64,000 nt of DNA from NCBI RefSeq assembly GCF_025602895.1, contig NW_026516269.1, positions 62,001 to 126,000 on the forward strand, in the 5' to 3' direction. The notes under the pieces were generated by a model. It saw only the letters and a list, made by a program, of their open reading frames with translations, did no database searches and was not told where the DNA came from. Origin of the DNA: Polychytrium aggregatum. Its lineage: Eukaryota > Chytridiomycota > Chytridiomycetes > Polychytriales. Both the position numbers and the translations under genes were made by a program. Position 1 is the first letter of the stretch; the number at the start of each line of letters is the position of its first letter. This document shows, one piece after another, positions 11,457-43,200 of the stretch.

Positions 11457-11530
11457 GCAGGATGGCAAAGTCCACAGCCCCTTGCTGCTGCCGATGCAGG
11501 GCGATTGTGCCGAGCACCCATCTCGCATGC
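11457..11530. repeat. 74-bp direct repeat, copy 1 (partner at 15614-15687)
   Basis: The sequence beginning GCAGGATGGCAAAGTCCAC is almost identical to 15614-15687. In both places it abuts the 3' terminal repeat of a transposon derivative on the same strand. Repeat plus derivative therefore look like one duplicated unit of about 370 bp. Confidence 0.85.
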
Positions 11531-11823
11531 TGATTGTACAGGGGGAAATGGAATACTTGCCCATAACCCATATGTCAGCGGAGTCTGTGATGGCATGCAT
11601 CCAGATAATCTATATGCAACAATCAGATCACCTCCGAGTGAACACCACCGGTCGCTCTCCGGTCTCCACAATCGGCATGCACACTGGTCTCGGAGTGTCA
11701 GCGGTGAATGGTGCTCTTGGACACTGGCGAATGGTCATGGCCAGCGCGCGATGGCTATTGGGTAACAAAATATATGATCAATGGACAATAACTAGGGTGT
11801 CCCGTTTTTTATTGAATAGACTG
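11531..11823 (-). mobile_element. Internal-deletion derivative of the Fanzor/DD34E transposon (relic E)
   Basis: On the minus strand the 5' end is at 11823, next to a TA at 11824-11825. It reads CAGTCTATTCAATAAAAAAC then GGGACACCC, nearly the terminal repeat of the full element. The start of the transposase gene (ATGACCATTCGCCA) and a fragment of its helix-turn-helix (TCCAAGAGCACCATTCACCG) follow. The sequence then jumps to the last Fanzor codons (IVETGERPVVFTRR) near 11682-11630. The other end, near 11531, has a decayed terminal repeat, TGTACAGGGGGAAATGG. No coding capacity remains. Confidence 0.85.
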
Positions 11824-15613: not shown

Positions 15614-15687
15614 GCAGGATGGCAAAGTCCACCGCCCCTTGCTGCTGCCGATGCAGGGCGATTGTGCCGAGCACCCATCTCGCATGC
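15614..15687. repeat. 74-bp direct repeat, copy 2 (partner at 11457-11530)
   Basis: Near-identical to 11457-11530 and joined to relic F in the same way, with the same orientation. Confidence 0.85.
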
Positions 15688-15990
15688 TGATTGTACAGGG
15701 GGAGATGCGACACTTGCCCACAACCCATATGTCAGTGGAGTCTGTGATGGCATGCATCCAGATAATCTATATGCAACAATCAGATCACCTCCGATTGAAC
15801 ACCACCGGTCGCTCTCCGGTCTCCACAAATCGACACGCACACTGGTCTCGGAGTGTCAGCGGTGAATGGTGCTCTTGGACACACCGGCGAATGGTGCTCT
15901 TGGACACACCGGCGAATGACCATGGCCAGCGCGCGATGGTTATTGAGTAGCAAAATATATCATCAATGGTCGATAACCAGGGTGTCCCGT
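15688..15990 (-). mobile_element. Internal-deletion derivative of the Fanzor/DD34E transposon (relic F)
   Basis: Same structure as relic E: a decayed 3' terminal repeat (TGTACAGGGGGAGATG) near 15691, Fanzor last codons near 15800-15840, the transposase start (revcomp of CATGGCCAGCGCGCGATGG) near 15920, and the inner part of the 5' repeat (GGGTGTCCCGT), where similarity stops at 15990. A 25-bp unit beginning GAATGGTGCTCTTGGACAC is duplicated in tandem (15864-15888 and 15889-15913), a difference from relic E. The SRPBCC gene starts 141 bp downstream. Confidence 0.85.
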
Positions 15991-28840: not shown

Positions 28841-30382
28841 ATGGCCTCTGTCATCTCCCCTCTTCAGGACATATTCACCATCGTCTGTTTCAACGACGCC
28901 TTCCAGTTTGCACTCGACCATGACACCATCGACACCCTGCTCAAAGCCCACGATTGCGCCTGGCATCTTTTGAGCCCCAAGGTGCCCCGCTTCCTCCGCT
29001 GGTGCCAGCGGGCAAATCTGTGCGATCCAGACGGACAGCTGAAGGTCGACCTCACACCCAGTGAAAAGATCGCACTCTCGCTGCGCTACGAGGAGTCAGG
29101 CTCAGCCGATCGAGCCTGGCTTGTTGCTCTTGCGGACCGAGGGAACGCTGTCGCCTCGTATTTCCTTGCTCGGATCATCCAAACTGAAACCGATCGACGG
29201 CGTTTTATGGATGAGCTGGAGCGAGAAAACGCCCTCCAGCAAGCTTTTCGACGCCTGGAGCAGGCCAGCAATGCTTGCCATCCAATGGCCCAGTTCCACC
29301 TGGCCGAGTCCTATCGCAACGGCTTCGGAGTCCGTGCGAACTACGCCAAGGCCCTGGAACTGTATCGAGGTCTTGCAACCCGTGGAATGCCTCGGGCCCA
29401 AATTGCCTTTGGTCGCTGCTACGAGAACAGGGAAGGCGTCGGTCGAAACTTTGACACAGCCATCGAGTGGTATTCCAAGGCCGCAGATCAAGGCAGTGAA
29501 GACGGCCGACTCCACATCGTATTCCTGCAAGCCTGGTTCTCGTTCATCGGCCAGGGCGTCGAAAAGAGCGACGTAGATGCCTTCCGCCGATGGCGGGAGG
29601 TCAGCAACCAATCCACCGACCCGGTCCTCAAGCCCATCGCAACCCTCATGGTCGGGTGGATGCACTATCTTGGCCGTGGTACCGTGCGAGACAAACAGAA
29701 AGGCGTCAGGATCATCCAAGATAATCGATCGAATGCATTCCCCCTGGGAGAAGAAGGGTGCCTGGCTGGAGACGCTGGCCCTATCTGGAATCGTAGCTCC
29801 TCTGACTCGCCCGCTGCCTTGAAGTTCTATCAGCTATGTGAAATGGGATCCGATAGGGACTGCCTTTGCGAACATCTCATGGCCCTATGTCACTTCCATG
29901 GATTCGGAACCACAGAGGACCCGTCATCGGGAGCGGTTATCTTTGAGCAGCTCGCCCAAAAAGGCCATAGCGAGAGCCAGTTTTGGATAGGACACTGCTA
30001 CGTGACCGGGTTGGGGAGAAGGCGAGAATTGACGGAGGCCATTGAATGGTTCAACGAATCCGCCGAGAACGGCAACTCGTATGCTCAGTGGATGTCGGGT
30101 TGCTGCTACGATGGTGAAGGCAGAGATCAAGACGAAGACGAAGGTGAAAACGAAAATGACGATGGCAGGAACGACGAGGCCAAAAGAGTCGAGTGGTATA
30201 TCAAATCTGCCTGTCAAGGCAATCGGTATGGACAGTACGAACTCGGTCGATGCTTGCAATATGGCTTGGGCGTCCCCAAACACAAGGACACTGCGATCTT
30301 TTGGCTTCGTAAAGCTGCCGAACAGGGACACCCTGCAGCCACCTCCAGTCTCGAGCGTCTCGGCGAATTAACCCGAGCATGA
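28841..30382 (+). CDS. SEL1-repeat protein
   Basis: A single exon of 513 residues from ATG 28841, in an excellent context (GCCATGGCC). At least six SEL1-like repeats of about 36 residues run through the protein: AQFHLAESYRNGFGVRANYA, then ALELYRGLATRGMPRAQIAFG, and near the end AKRVEWYIKSACQGNRYGQY and LGVPKHKDTAIFWLRKAAEQ. SEL1 repeats form an alpha-solenoid that acts as a scaffold; fungal relatives include chitin-synthase activators and ERAD factors. An acidic insert (DQDEDEGENENDDGR) interrupts one repeat near 30125-30180. The same frame is open upstream to 28565, through transposon relic B, so an N-terminally extended product beginning in transposon sequence is possible. The internal ATG is preferred because protein-like sequence starts there. 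Confidence 0.85.
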   Translation: MASVISPLQDIFTIVCFNDAFQFALDHDTIDTLLKAHDCAWHLLSPKVPRFLRWCQRANLCDPDGQLKVDLTPSEKIALSLRYEESGSADRAWLVALADRGNAVASYFLARIIQTETDRRRFMDELERENALQQAFRRLEQASNACHPMAQFHLAESYRNGFGVRANYAKALELYRGLATRGMPRAQIAFGRCYENREGVGRNFDTAIEWYSKAADQGSEDGRLHIVFLQAWFSFIGQGVEKSDVDAFRRWREVSNQSTDPVLKPIATLMVGWMHYLGRGTVRDKQKGVRIIQDNRSNAFPLGEEGCLAGDAGPIWNRSSSDSPAALKFYQLCEMGSDRDCLCEHLMALCHFHGFGTTEDPSSGAVIFEQLAQKGHSESQFWIGHCYVTGLGRRRELTEAIEWFNESAENGNSYAQWMSGCCYDGEGRDQDEDEGENENDDGRNDEAKRVEWYIKSACQGNRYGQYELGRCLQYGLGVPKHKDTAIFWLRKAAEQGHPAATSSLERLGELTRA

Positions 30383-34260: not shown

Positions 34261-34515
34261 GAGGTGATGCGCCGTGCCAGCGATTGTCCGTTTGTTTCTA
34301 GGCGCTGAATACACCCATCTATCGCTGCACTGCGGCACTTGAGACCCAGCTGCTGGAGAGTGTGGAATCGCGATGCCAATGCGACGCACAACATGATCTC
34401 ATCGCGCAGCCCGATTGTGGAGGCCAGAGAGCGACCTTTGCTCGCTCGGAAGCTGCCGAGGTGATCGTTTTTCGCTGCATATGGCTTTGTTTGACGCATA
34501 CTACGCTCTCATGAG
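34261..34515 (+). mobile_element. Decayed Fanzor/DD34E transposon fragment (relic C)
   Basis: GTGTGGAATCGCGATGCC near 34361 encodes VWNRDANATHNMI, aligned with VWNRDVNAARNMI, the RuvC-III segment of the intact Fanzor. It continues through IVE...RP to the region after the stop (GGCTTTGTTTGACGCATAC near 34483). Just before it, TGAATACACCCATCTATCG then CTGCACTGCG matches the transposase-side sequence of relic B, so this too is a deletion product. Terminal repeats are no longer recognisable. Confidence 0.8.
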
Positions 34516-35684: not shown

Positions 35685-36088
35685 AATAGATGTACGAGTC
35701 GGATGATGCTGCCGATGCCGCTCGTTTGGCTGGAGTAGTCCAGGGGCCGGGGTTTGAATGTGGCCAGAGCAAAGTCATGAGGGCAGGAAGCATTCGCACA
35801 GCTAGTCGTCGCTGCGAATCGAGCTGGTGTGGGTGCGACGCCGAAAGTGAAAGCATCGACAGTCCAAGAACCCAGAGGTCGCCCAAGACGAATTCTGGCC
35901 AATCCTCGTTCCGCGCTGTCCGTGCGAACGGCTTGCGAGAACAAAACGGGACAGTAGTGTCCCTGGGTGCCCTTCGCATCAGCCACTGCCTTCAGCGCAG
36001 CGATCTGCAGGCCGCATGGTCAAAGCCATACGATCGTTTCCGGTCTCGGTTGGAGATCGAGTGGCTTTGTTTGTTCGGGGGCAGTCTT
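35685..36088. other. Left flank of the Fanzor transposon
   Basis: No gene recognised. AAAACGGGACAG at 35944-35955 matches the inner 11 bp of the transposon terminal repeat, but nothing around it extends the similarity. Confidence 0.5.
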
Positions 36089-36090
36089 TA

Positions 36091-36116
36091 CAGGCAATCC
36101 AATAAAAAACGGGACA
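36091..36116 (+). repeat. Left terminal inverted repeat
   Basis: It starts CAGGCAATCCAATAAAAAAC and ends GGGACA. Compared with the right repeat it matches at most positions, with the inner AAAAAACGGGACA block identical. Confidence 0.92.
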
Positions 36117-36174
36117 CCCGGGTTTTTGACCATTCATCGAATATTTTGTTACCCAATGTTATCGCGCGCTGGCC

Positions 36175-37097
36175 ATGACCATTCGCCACACATCCGACTT
36201 TCGCACCGCCGCATTGCGATGCTACGCCCTCATCCATAGCCTGCGTAAGGTTGCCTCCATATTCAGTGTATCCAAGAGCACCATCCATCGATGGCACCGA
36301 GGACACAAGCTAACCGAGTCACAGCTCGCAGATCCACTTTCTTTGAGCAGGCATGTCCAGTCATTCGCACCCTGATTGAACAGGACCCGTTCCAGACTGG
36401 TCCTGTGTTGCGGTGCAAGCTCGAGTCCATCCTCCAGAGGAAAGTATCACTCTCACTCTGCTACACTGCCATCCACCGAGCAGGTCTCTCACACAAGAGG
36501 GCAACACACCTCTACAAGTCCAAGCGACTGGATGAGCGAGTGGCACAGTTCAGGGACCAGGTCCGCTCCATCGACCCACGACGATTCGTTTTTGTCGATG
36601 AGACAGGGATCAGGAGATCCATTTTTCCTCTTTACGGATACTCACCGAAGGGTGCTCCGCTTCGCCAGCGCAATCACATGGAACACAAGTCTGTCTCGGC
36701 TGCATTTGCCATCAACCACTCTGGTGTGCTGCATCGCATGTACATCCCCACATCATTCAAGACACACTCGATGGTCGAGTTCTTTGAGCGAGCGAGCTTC
36801 CCAGACGACTCTGTGATTGTGATGGACAATGTCAGCATGCACAAGACACGGGCTGTCCTGGACTGCATCGAGCGCCGAGGATGGTCAGTGATCTTCACCC
36901 CACCTGCTTCACCCGACTTCAATCCCATCGAGAACTTCTTTGGGATTGTGAAGCATCAGTACAGGAAGATGGCAGCGCTGAATGCGTCCGAGGGGTTCAG
37001 AGTCGGGATGGTGACCCTGTTTGAGTCTGCCGTTCGGAGGGTGCTTCCAGATGTCTTCCCACGGCTGATTGAGCGAGCGATGCGCTTCTGGGGTTGA
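36175..37097 (+). pseudogene. DD34E transposase, probably frameshifted
   Basis: Frame 1 from ATG 36175 gives the N-terminal helix-turn-helix (RKVASIFSVSKSTIHRWHRG) but stops at 36373-36375. The catalytic part continues in the -1 frame from about 36340 to 37097: VFVDETGIRRS (first Asp), VIVMDNVSMHKT (second Asp), SPDFNPIENFFGIVK (Glu), with 34 residues between the second Asp and the Glu. Together about 307 codons, near the family norm of 340. The switch falls near the run CCACTTTCTTTG at 36334-36345. A one-base indel is most likely; a programmed -1 shift is an alternative. All three catalytic residues are present. Confidence 0.85.
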
Positions 37098-37214
37098 GTT
37101 CCCTCCAATCAAGCCGCCATTTTCACGCTCAAATCCCTGGCTTGAACCTCTCGGCGATTTTTGAACAGGGTCGCTTCCCCAACCAACCCGCAAAGACGGG
37201 CTCCTGCTCTCGGG

Positions 37215-37220
37215 TATAAA
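37215..37220 (+). promoter_or_regulatory. TATA box candidate for the Fanzor gene
   Basis: TATAAA (context GGGTATAAATGCC) lies 118 bp after the transposase stop and 131 bp before the preferred Fanzor ATG. This fits a separate promoter rather than one transcript for both genes. Confidence 0.5.
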
Positions 37221-37350
37221 TGCCACACCTTCGTCCTGCTGCTTTCTTCCCTCATCTCGCCTTGATCTGATCATCGCGCTATTGTACGATAAAAAAAAAG
37301 TCTCTGCTCTGACCAGTACCACTGGCAGGCATCCAGCATCCTCTGCCCCC

Positions 37351-39723
37351 ATGCCTCCGAAGCGTAAGGGTACCGGTGATGGCCAGCCTCGGCCACCCAG
37401 GCCCAAGAAAGCCAAGTCACAGTCGGAGCCTGTCTCTGGTTCGTATTCTGACCCCACGCATGCTTGTTCGTCTGTTGCTCCGTCGCTCACCACCACTGCT
37501 TCTGCAGATCCAATGGATGTCGATCCCACCGAGCCTGGTCCATCTACTTCCTCGAGTACCGGCAAGCGATGTCCCAAGTGCGATGGCACCGATCACGAAC
37601 GCTGCAACACCAACAAGTGTCCCAAATACCGGCCCCTCAAGAGTTCTGTCGTCCCACTCGTGGATGGAAGGTCATCCGCCCCTCAGTTCAGCTGCTTCAA
37701 GCAGACGATGGATGGCTGTTGTCTCAATCCCGCTCTCCGCGACAAGATCCAGGCCACCGTCGAGGCCATGACCCAGATCCAGTTCGAGGCATCCAGGCTG
37801 CTCAACCTGCACATCCTCCGGTGCATCGAGCAGGATCTTCCCGTCCCCGTCATCTCCAAGTCCACCCCTGCTTTCATCCGCCAATGCTTTAAGATCGTCC
37901 AGGACGGTGCCCTCTCCCCGACCGGGGACAATGAGAAATACAACGAGCATCTGGTCGCTTCCTTTCGCGACTACCAGACCACTCGGCACGCAGACCTGCC
38001 TCCGGCCCCTCGTCTGCCTGATGGTGCTCACAGTCAGCTTCTCACACTGGCTGTCAATGCCTATGCCACCAACCGCACCACCCACCTCGATCTGGCCTAC
38101 TGGCGACTCCTTCGCCGCTTTTGTGCTGCCGTCTTCTCAGCCAACAAGCACAAGCACGAAGCCATCGAGGCCTGTCTCGAGCTCTTCGAGAAACCAGGGC
38201 AGACACCACCCAAGGCCGATCTCGAGTTCCTCTACCCGGACTTTGGCCACGTCCTGGACGAGTTTCGGTACAGCAACGACCAGGACCGCTTCCGGGCCCT
38301 CCATCGCCTCTCACACCATGTGAGAATCCTCGCCCGAGACAAGATGCAGGACGATGTCCACAAGTGGATCGACTGTGACATGCCCGCCCTCCGAGTCACC
38401 GAGCTGCAGCGCCAGGCCAAGCTGGACGAGCTCACTACCAGAGGCATTCCCTCCGACGACAAGAGGTTCACCACGGCCAAGTCTGAGCTCGGCACCACCA
38501 AGTCCAAGATCAACAAGCTGGCATCCAGACTCAAGTGGGCCCTCAAGCAGCTCGCTCTCGACACTCCTCCGGCCGTGTGCACGATGGTTCCTCTGTGCAC
38601 TGCCACGGCCAAGTATGTCAAGATTGACACCGTCGCACTCTGGGAGCTCCTGGGTCCAAAGAAGCGCCTTGGACTCACCAGGGACAAGCTCAAGGAAGAA
38701 GGCGAGGACGGCATCAACAACCAGGATCGTCTCTGGCGCAGTTGCTTCAAGCTGCGTAGTTCCCTCTTCCAAGAGCGGGTCAGGGACAAGAAGCTGTTCA
38801 ACTACGAGATCAGCACCGATGGCATTGGATGCACCATCGGCCTCGTCAAGTTTGTGCGTCGAACCGATCGCACCGAGACCTCCGAGTCTCCTCCGACTGC
38901 CGAGCAGCGTATCCAGGCCCACATCGGTGACCCAGACCCCGGTGGCACCACTTGGATTGGCATCGATCCTGGAGTCGGCTCCATCTTCACGGCGGTCATC
39001 CAAGCACCGGGCCACCAAGACGAGGTAGTCTCGTTCTCCAATGCCCACTACCAGCACATGTGTGGCCATACGTCCAACACCAAGTGGCACAATATCATGA
39101 AGTATCGACTCAGCATCGAGACCTGGATGTCGTCCACCCCCTCGCCCAAGGTGTCGTCCTCGGAGGCTTTCAAGGTCCATCTCACCCATGTCCTGCGACC
39201 GGAGCTGCGAGTGCAGCTCGACTTCCACCTTGGCAAGAAGGCCCGTCACCATCGCTTCACGGGCCACAAGAGGCGCCAAGTGGCCGTCGACAGGATGTGC
39301 AAGGCCGTCCTGAAGCACGCCCCGATACGGACCGATGTGGTGATCGCCTTTGGCAATGCGTCATGGCGTCAAGGCAAGGGCTATGCATCCAGCCCTCGGA
39401 GGCAGCGATTTGCTCAGTACTTTGAGCAGTTCGAGCACCACCGACGCCGTCCCAATCACCATCATGGAAGCGTCAAGGTAGTCTCGACGAACGAGTTCAA
39501 CACCTCACAGGTGTGCTCCAAGTGCCTGGAGCCAGTTCGGCTGGGGGATCTGAAAGCGCCCAGTGTTGCGAATTCCCACTTTGTCAGGAGCTGCAAGAAT
39601 CCCAGCTGCCGGACAGTGTGGAATCGCGACGTCAATGCGGCGCGCAACATGATCACAGTATGCAGGTCGATTGTGGAGATCGGAGAGCGACCGGCGGTCT
39701 TCACTCGGAGGCTGCCAAAGTGA
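37351..39723 (+). CDS. Fanzor (eukaryotic TnpB-like RNA-guided nuclease)
   Basis: 790 residues from ATG 37351 (MPPKRKGTGDGQPRPPRPKK, a nuclear-localisation-like start). The frame is open to an earlier ATG at 37282, but MPPKRK follows the TATA box better. A zinc-knuckle-like CPKCDGTDHERC...CP begins at residue 74. After a helical middle come the RuvC elements: WIGIDPGVGSIFT (Asp539), VVIAFGNASW where TnpB has its second acidic residue (no Glu here), STNEFNTSQVCSKC (Glu715, Cys722, Cys725), CKNPSC (Cys748, Cys753) and WNRDVNAARNM (Asp760). A shifted catalytic Glu just before the TS-x-x-C motif is characteristic of Fanzor. It should cut DNA guided by an RNA from the element's 3' end. No stop, frameshift or obvious intron is seen. 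Confidence 0.93.
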   Translation: MPPKRKGTGDGQPRPPRPKKAKSQSEPVSGSYSDPTHACSSVAPSLTTTASADPMDVDPTEPGPSTSSSTGKRCPKCDGTDHERCNTNKCPKYRPLKSSVVPLVDGRSSAPQFSCFKQTMDGCCLNPALRDKIQATVEAMTQIQFEASRLLNLHILRCIEQDLPVPVISKSTPAFIRQCFKIVQDGALSPTGDNEKYNEHLVASFRDYQTTRHADLPPAPRLPDGAHSQLLTLAVNAYATNRTTHLDLAYWRLLRRFCAAVFSANKHKHEAIEACLELFEKPGQTPPKADLEFLYPDFGHVLDEFRYSNDQDRFRALHRLSHHVRILARDKMQDDVHKWIDCDMPALRVTELQRQAKLDELTTRGIPSDDKRFTTAKSELGTTKSKINKLASRLKWALKQLALDTPPAVCTMVPLCTATAKYVKIDTVALWELLGPKKRLGLTRDKLKEEGEDGINNQDRLWRSCFKLRSSLFQERVRDKKLFNYEISTDGIGCTIGLVKFVRRTDRTETSESPPTAEQRIQAHIGDPDPGGTTWIGIDPGVGSIFTAVIQAPGHQDEVVSFSNAHYQHMCGHTSNTKWHNIMKYRLSIETWMSSTPSPKVSSSEAFKVHLTHVLRPELRVQLDFHLGKKARHHRFTGHKRRQVAVDRMCKAVLKHAPIRTDVVIAFGNASWRQGKGYASSPRRQRFAQYFEQFEHHRRRPNHHHGSVKVVSTNEFNTSQVCSKCLEPVRLGDLKAPSVANSHFVRSCKNPSCRTVWNRDVNAARNMITVCRSIVEIGERPAVFTRRLPK

Positions 39724-39821
39724 TCTGTTTTATTTCTTGTGGCTTTGCTTGACGCAAGCACAGCACATACTACATGTTCATGGAAACGGCTATATTGTCC
39801 CGTTTTTTTCTGAATAAAGTG
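39724..39821 (+). ncRNA. Candidate Fanzor guide-RNA scaffold at the element's right end
   Basis: In TnpB and Fanzor systems the guide RNA comes from the region overlapping the nuclease gene's 3' end and the element terminus. Here the 98 bp after the stop contain a hairpin TGCTTG-ACG-CAAGCA (39746-39760). Relic D keeps it as AGCTTG-ACG-CAAGCT, swapping the outermost pair, and a following CATACTACRYKYTCATGGAA block is also shared. Transcription is not shown; this is inference. Confidence 0.45.
39796..39821 (-). repeat. Right terminal inverted repeat
   Basis: Read inward on the minus strand: CACTTTATTCAGAAAAAAAC then GGGACA. It is followed by TA at 39822-39823. Confidence 0.92.
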
Positions 39822-39823
39822 TA

Positions 39824-43039: not shown

Positions 43040-43200
43040 CACTGTATTCAGAAAAACGGGACACTACATCCGCTTCCATGAGCGTGTAGTATATGATAAG
43101 CTTGCGTCAAGCTCAGCCATAAGATATAAACAGATCACTTTGGCTGCTTCCAAGTAGAGGCCACGGGTCGCTCTCCGATCTCCACATTCTCCTTTCGTGA
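43040..43200 (-). mobile_element. Truncated right end of the Fanzor transposon (relic D)
   Basis: TA at 43038-43039 precedes CACTGTATTCAGAAAAACGG then GACA, a good right terminal repeat. On the minus strand the hairpin (43099-43113) and a Fanzor C-terminus VEIGERPVASTWKQPK (stop at 43135) are kept. Similarity ends near 43200 and the left part is absent. Closest of the relics to the intact element. Confidence 0.88.

Follow-up and report, generated by a model that had tools for sequence, protein, structure and literature searches.

Fanzor1 proteins are carried by the Mariner elements PGv-1 and PUl-1 (Bao and Jurka 2013, PMC3627910, available part), and the combination of a Mariner transposase with Fanzor1 is therefore an already published architecture. 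In Spizellomyces punctatus, the target-adjacent motif (TAM) measured for SpuFz1, CATA, is composed of a conserved CA and the TA at the left end, at Fz loci and ghost loci alike (PMC10432273, available part), and the TA of that left end is a duplication (PMC3627910, same part). Literature searched for retention and homing by such nucleases pointed to TnpB, and non-allelic conversion among transposon copies is already known (PMC4384637, available part). Here we describe a Tc1/mariner-type element at positions 36091-39821 of a 64,000-nucleotide stretch of the Polychytrium aggregatum genome (contig NW_026516269.1), which was analysed as a whole and is called the window below. The element belongs to a large Tc1/mariner-type family (TA, DD34E) whose full members appear to encode both a transposase and a Fanzor1-like nuclease, and the reading that we prefer, and hold to be moderately probable, is that the transposase moves the element and that the Fanzor drives its retention or homing. 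An earlier note on this DNA had proposed a native Fanzor within a resolvable, TA-flanked DD34E element with relics in the window, and this much stood; the transposase of this copy proved to be broken, and the proposed recent activity was not borne out. The observation is thus partly confirmed and the interpretation partly supported. Only the mosaicism of the copies and the TTA on their left flank go beyond that first reading.

Structure and copies of the element

In the window sequence TA adjoins both boundaries of the element, all of whose features lie on the plus strand; the right TA duplication is at 39822-39823, and the left TA forms part of a TTA at 36088-36090. When the genome was searched with the complete element, 39 places were scored, one of them in the window, and the stretches fetched from them represent the best-scoring copies of that search. 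Both ends were present in 39/39 copies read; the boundaries given in the earlier note hold for the window copy, and the same ends recur in 38 further copies, which the note had suggested looking for. At independent sites TA was found on the left in 31/31 cases and on the right in 29/31. The left (36091-36116) and right (39796-39821) terminal inverted repeats, the latter also recurring in the copies read, have the same base at 19 of their 26 positions in the window element; they match as had been claimed, imperfectly, at a level reached by 0 of 200,000 random 26-mer pairs from the window.

Whole-genome pattern counts, which allowed up to 3 mismatches and for which reversed-pattern controls gave 0, returned 395 matches for the left end, 337 for the right-end region, 259 for a 36-mer of the Fanzor body and 275 for a 36-mer of the transposase body. 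Some of the 39 copies are internally deleted and 32 are full-length. Seven short derivatives of approximately 308, 308, 279, 381 and three times 1110 bp were also found, their lengths being taken from end positions only. Between different sites identity reached 98.1% at best, with a median of 96.2% for the 38 copies outside the window, values that do not bear out the description of the element as recently active.

Transposase gene

The transposase gene (36175-37097) matched Pfam DDE_3 with an E value of 6.4e-24, and HTH_23, a helix-turn-helix (HTH) domain, at 8.8e-5, although the latter falls under the curated cut-off of Pfam. Intact copies of the family have the triad D145, D221 and E256, that is DD34E, together with the HTH, as in Tc1/mariner (IS630) transposases. 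The DD34E transposase noted earlier is thus a property of the family, whereas the gene of the window copy is broken: it lacks 10 bp that other copies have, and its HTH part (36175-36375) and DDE part (36291-37097) fall in different frames. With its frame split in this way, the element in the window is unable to supply a transposase of its own. Of all 39 copies only this one and L046, which has the same flanks, have the deletion. A profile of 12 transposases searched against PDB had Sleeping Beauty, a member of the expected family, as its sole match up to E = 1, a weak one (E 0.31).

Four copies at different sites (L042, L043, L044 and L045) have the same internal transposase deletions and form a non-autonomous sub-family that retains the Fanzor gene, with the frame open in L042 and L044.

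Fanzor gene

The Fanzor frame (37351-39723) is open over 790 codons, and Asp539, Glu715 and Asp760 stand where the earlier note had put them; the four-Cys zinc site consists of Cys 722, 725, 748 and 753. The Pfam domain Cas12f1-like_TNB was also found in the window protein. The published Fanzor signature is a DPG motif, a Glu six residues ahead of the zinc finger, and then a D (PMC10711439), and the window protein has DPG at 539-541, E715, its first Cys at 722 and D760. The search pattern of the same paper calls for two CxxC pairs and for a spacer of 120-160 residues between DPG and E, whereas the second pair of the window Fanzor is C-x4-C and its spacer is 173; the second Cys pair in the aligned segment of SpuFz1 is likewise C-x4-C. 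In the available part of PMC3627910 the Fanzor pattern is given as D-X(125,275)-[TS][TS]XX-C4 zinc finger-X(5,50)-RD, which corresponds here to D539, T718-S719, the four Cys and R759-D760.

PDB searches with single sequences gave no match at E 0.001. A profile of 19 Fanzor copies matched, up to E = 10, solely SpuFz1 (8gkh), weakly (E 0.11) and at profile positions 739-789, again a member of the expected family; this match and the association with a Mariner-type element underlie the tentative assignment to Fanzor1. The window protein is predicted to be a Fanzor1-like RNA-guided nuclease. Peptide-pattern scans, with one pattern per protein and hence able to detect only pattern-sharing relatives, revealed no viral relatives of the transposase or the Fanzor.

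Open frames and selection

The Fanzor frame was uninterrupted in 31 of the 39 copies and the transposase frame in 23, of which 19 were full-length (L022, in which only the stop is lost, was not counted). Both genes were open in 18 copies, 15 of them with a full-length transposase. The ratio of nonsynonymous to synonymous polymorphism (pN/pS) over the 39 copies was 0.36 for each gene, which indicates that both proteins are under constraint. Distinct indels per kb amounted to 1.3 in the Fanzor (3, all in frame), 21.4 in the transposase (20) and 48-61 in non-coding sequence. In the 32 full-length copies the transposase had 10 distinct small frameshifts, against 0 for the Fanzor (P 3e-6 by length), whereas the excess of open Fanzor frames (27/32) over open transposase frames (20/32) was not significant (P 0.09).

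Preferential retention of the Fanzor, suggested by the 31 open frames, was rejected as an explanation, since large losses are under-represented in copies chosen by best score and the whole-genome counts give no advantage to the Fanzor body. What remains of Fanzor retention is that it has fewer small frameshifts than the transposase.

Left flank

The base before the left TA was T at 28 of 31 independent sites and at 10 of 10 further sites, giving 38/41, and also at 7/7 short derivatives; as a background value, 13.8% of all TA dinucleotides in the window have a T before them. In a list of exact left ends, 98 of the first 100 were preceded by TTA and 2 had another base, and exact left ends with a base other than T numbered 6 in the genome. 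The bias is one-sided, since its mirror image, an A following the right TA, was found at 4/41 sites only (Fisher 5e-15). Exact right ends ending in TAA numbered 40 in the genome, by estimate about 15%, given that 31 of the 39 copies have an exact right end and that 337 right-end regions were counted. As the conserved left-flank CA plus TA equals the measured CATA in S. punctatus, TTA is predicted, by analogy and from the flanks, to be the TAM of this Fanzor.

The left flank of one further copy (L084, G000:C24:273840-273884) holds ATAAAGTGTA, which resembles the right end of another copy and points to neighbouring or nested insertions.

Right end and putative guide RNA

The putative guide-RNA (omega RNA) scaffold consists of the Fanzor 3' end and the right end of the element (39690-39821). 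These last 132 nt folded with a z score of -3.29, and 1 of 200 shuffles folded as well; shorter right-end pieces and a relic showed no fold excess (z -1.05, -1.40 and -1.06). The right-end region recurs in old relics. A hairpin at 39738-39769 is kept in a relic at 43090-43121 (minus strand), in which, among 13 pairs, one shows a two-sided change, two show one-sided changes and one is broken. When the hairpin partners were slid, pairing fell from 96% to 54% or less, while a shuffle control on the two sequences was uninformative (269/500). A three-sequence alignment had two-sided changes in 2/28 predicted pairs. Rfam gave no match in the window at gathering thresholds. An RNA structure at the right end is plausible on this evidence.

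Guides aimed at the element itself were considered and rejected: 4/31 guides best matched family sequence, with 3 mismatches in 16, compared with 20/300 random 16-mers with at most 3, and TTA stood upstream of 0/4 of these best guide matches.

Empty sites

For 31 insertions the flanks, 100 nt from each side, were joined and searched for, and no match across the junction was found, with the best 40 of 332 candidates scored, so that a miss is possible. A search for empty sites had also been proposed in the earlier note. For eight further sites the flanks were found at a second genomic place as well. Occupation was evident at seven of these places, as judged by end or body pattern or by flank spacing, and one of the seven holds a derivative of about 1.1 kb; the eighth place is C407:130709.

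Mosaic bodies and loss of linkage

Eight pairs of copies with the same flanks occur among the 39. Their collinear flanks differ by 14 substitutions in 15,649 bp (0.09%), a count from which two flanks were left out where homology was lost within the fetched kilobase (the right flank of L012/L018, 204/1151, and the left flank of L015/L036, 352/1095). Between the bodies of the same pairs there are 688 substitutions over some 29,600 bp, with differences of 1.1-3.5% in 7 pairs and of 0.03% in L023/L025. The minor alleles of 578 of these 688 differences were found in other copies. In L016/L021 the 40 differences fall into 17 clusters or single sites, and in L009/L046 the interiors differ although the ends and a private deletion are common to both.

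Over the 32 full-length copies, r2 was 0.50 at 1-5 bp, 0.045 at 20-40 bp and 0.036-0.037 beyond, compared with 0.032 under independence; 50 simulations of clonal copies gave 0.40 (range 0.19-0.72). An equal decay was obtained for the Fanzor, the transposase, transversions, third codon positions and one copy per site. All four gametes were present at 66-71% of site pairs more than 25 bp apart. Repeat-induced point mutation-like or recurrent mutation is unlikely to lie behind the common differences, because all twelve change types occur and a third allele is present at only 39 of the 228 sites with a common second allele. From these sequences the copies seem to have exchanged sequence so freely that the family behaves as one gene pool; if the assembly is correct, conversion among them would be extraordinarily frequent. 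A literature search, which mostly covered papers outside subscription, turned up no earlier case in which copies of a Fanzor recombine freely with one another.

In the two pairs with excluded flanks, pair homology stops on one side (the right in L012/L018 and the left in L015/L036) at a distance of about 0.5 kb from the element, which represents structural differences between the two places.

Relics and other repeats

Four relics were identified in the window. A relic of a related right end lies at 43040-43197 (minus strand; 82% over 153 bp, nhmmer 3.6e-36), and one of a related Fanzor C-terminus with right end at 34315-34508 (plus strand; tblastn 48% over 54 aa, nhmmer 9.9e-32). At 11580-11823 (minus strand), sequence and nhmmer searches revealed a ghost-like relic in which the left end adjoins the right-end region with no open frame between them, and a second one of the same layout lies at 15736-15990 (minus strand). 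Two segments, 11457-11735 and 15614-15895, are 95% alike, 4 kb apart, ghost-like and gene-less, with right-end-like sequence beside the left-end relic. Window positions 28868-30110 have at least 38 relatives genome-wide at about 70-72% identity.

A retroelement family of the same genome (G000; for example L049-L067, 477 bp each) has many copies per contig stretch (for example in C11, C115, C201 and C366). Twenty copies were sampled from 150 listed, most of which were listed with a 1284-codon open frame. We would guess that such clustering may mark centromere-like regions.

Proposed mechanism and alternatives

Under the reading that we prefer, the transposase would move the element by cut and paste, also acting in trans on copies like that in the window. 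The Fanzor would bind an RNA of the right end, with the flank beyond the right TA as its guide. With TTA as TAM, this ribonucleoprotein (RNP) would cut unoccupied versions of its own site, and repair from the occupied homologue would restore the element, so that the element is retained or homes in the manner proposed for TnpB. DNA synthesis during repair over a body with hundreds of homologous templates would produce both mosaics and internal deletions. The usual excision scars of Tc1/mariner elements carry extra bases between two TAs; in such scars the target would have lost its adjoining TTA, and the RNP would be expected to aim at pristine empty sites and not at scars. We count in favour of this mechanism the shared ends and the number of copies, the TA, the two genes with their DDE_3 and TNB domains and their constraint, the Fanzor-like DPG, alternative Glu and Cys pattern, the weak SpuFz1 match, the one-sided TTA, the folded right end, the 31 junctions without an empty site and the internal deletions. 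A bolder form of it, which we regard as a long shot, is that homing by the Fanzor, combined with template switching, unites hundreds of dispersed copies in a single gene pool that recombines freely: the RNP would cut its own empty site and repair would copy the element back while hopping between copies, leaving the body mosaic and the flank-specific guide constant. If true, this would be a eukaryotic transposon with sex among its copies.

Several results weigh against Fanzor-driven retention or homing. The lack of empty sites is equally expected if two haplotypes share old insertions; the AlphaFold model of the Fanzor has a mean predicted local distance difference test (pLDDT) score of 34.2 and is unusable for the expected fold of WED, REC, RuvC and NUC or for placing the triad; 8 of the 39 Fanzor frames have a premature stop, and singleton changes to stop reach 0.88 of the neutral expectation; and the genome-wide pattern counts do not show the Fanzor to be better kept than the transposase. 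Turnover by the transposase alone, with the Fanzor as a passenger or in another role, is an alternative that we consider rather improbable. Excision gaps would then be filled by template-switching repair from a sister, a homologue or an ectopic copy, as is known for Drosophila P elements, and internally deleted copies and mosaics would need no Fanzor; the about equal frequency of the two body patterns (275 and 259) also suits it. It sits badly with the constraint on the Fanzor, with the lack of Fanzor frameshifts in the 32 full-length copies, which together have 10 distinct ones in the transposase, and with the many copies in which the transposase is broken and the Fanzor open. The TTA, too, could have another source, since its presence at all seven derivatives, which are too short for a Fanzor, means that the transposase, which chooses the insertion sites, could be its cause. 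That TTA is a target preference of the transposase and not a TAM is a possibility we take seriously, while favouring the TAM; both can hold together. Target preferences of Tc1/mariner elements are usually symmetric about TA, whereas the bias seen here is one-sided, and in S. punctatus ghost loci without Fz also keep the CA of the measured TAM (PMC10432273, available part).

The mosaics themselves could be an assembly artefact, in which reads of hundreds of similar copies were mixed and neither the paired bodies nor the linkage loss is biological. We judge this unlikely, and real conversion likely. Linkage disequilibrium disappears within tens of bp, a distance comparable to the length of short words, and several same-flank partners sit on small contigs, as mixing would have it. 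Pair differences also thin toward the ends, where their ratio to those of other pairs is 0.47 for the first 50 bp and 0.00 for the last 60 bp, a thinning that gene conversion and flank-anchored assembly predict alike. Against mixing, the 362,609 letters analysed contain no N, the 7 pairs have ten differences less than 100 bp from the left flank, and divergence among copies is over-dispersed (variance 167 versus 69, maximum 131 in 300 site shuffles), with L040 contributing much. In the retroelement family 19 of the 20 sampled copies were identical over 477 bp, which rules out random base noise but not copy mixing, since identical copies cannot reveal it.

Comparison with known systems

The closest described elements share parts of this organisation. 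As described in PMC3627910, PGv-1 and PUl-1 resemble the window family in combining a Mariner-like transposase and Fanzor1 in one element with terminal inverted repeats and TA duplications. PGv-1 is single-copy, virus-borne and has an extra endonuclease, whereas the window family has 395 left-end matches and no third gene was seen in it. TnpB of IS200/IS605 (PMC11870625, available part) is likewise an element-encoded RNA-guided nuclease that records the insertion site, and it is the source of the retention and drive model; it is bacterial and works with a single-strand peel-and-paste transposase, and for the window family retention is a proposal only.

Spu-1/SpuFz1 of S. punctatus (Saito et al. 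2023, PMC10432273, available part) is alike in its inverted repeats, its structured right end and its nuclease-less short ghost loci. Full or partial Fz is present at 42 of its loci, a further 134 are ghosts, and its repeats enclose no transposase, whereas in the window family the transposase lies inside the element. The constant bases left of TA are CA in Spu-1 and T in the window family, and the CATA of Spu-1 is measured whereas TTA is predicted. How Fanzors serve their transposons is still an open question, and in S. punctatus a transposase was not found between the repeats; the family described here joins a transposase, a Fanzor, a putative RNA, a predicted TAM, ghost-like copies and hundreds of tagged sites in one genome, and so makes the role of the Fanzor testable. 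If its mosaics are real, the family would be a natural record of repair copying and would offer a place to measure what an RNA-guided nuclease does.

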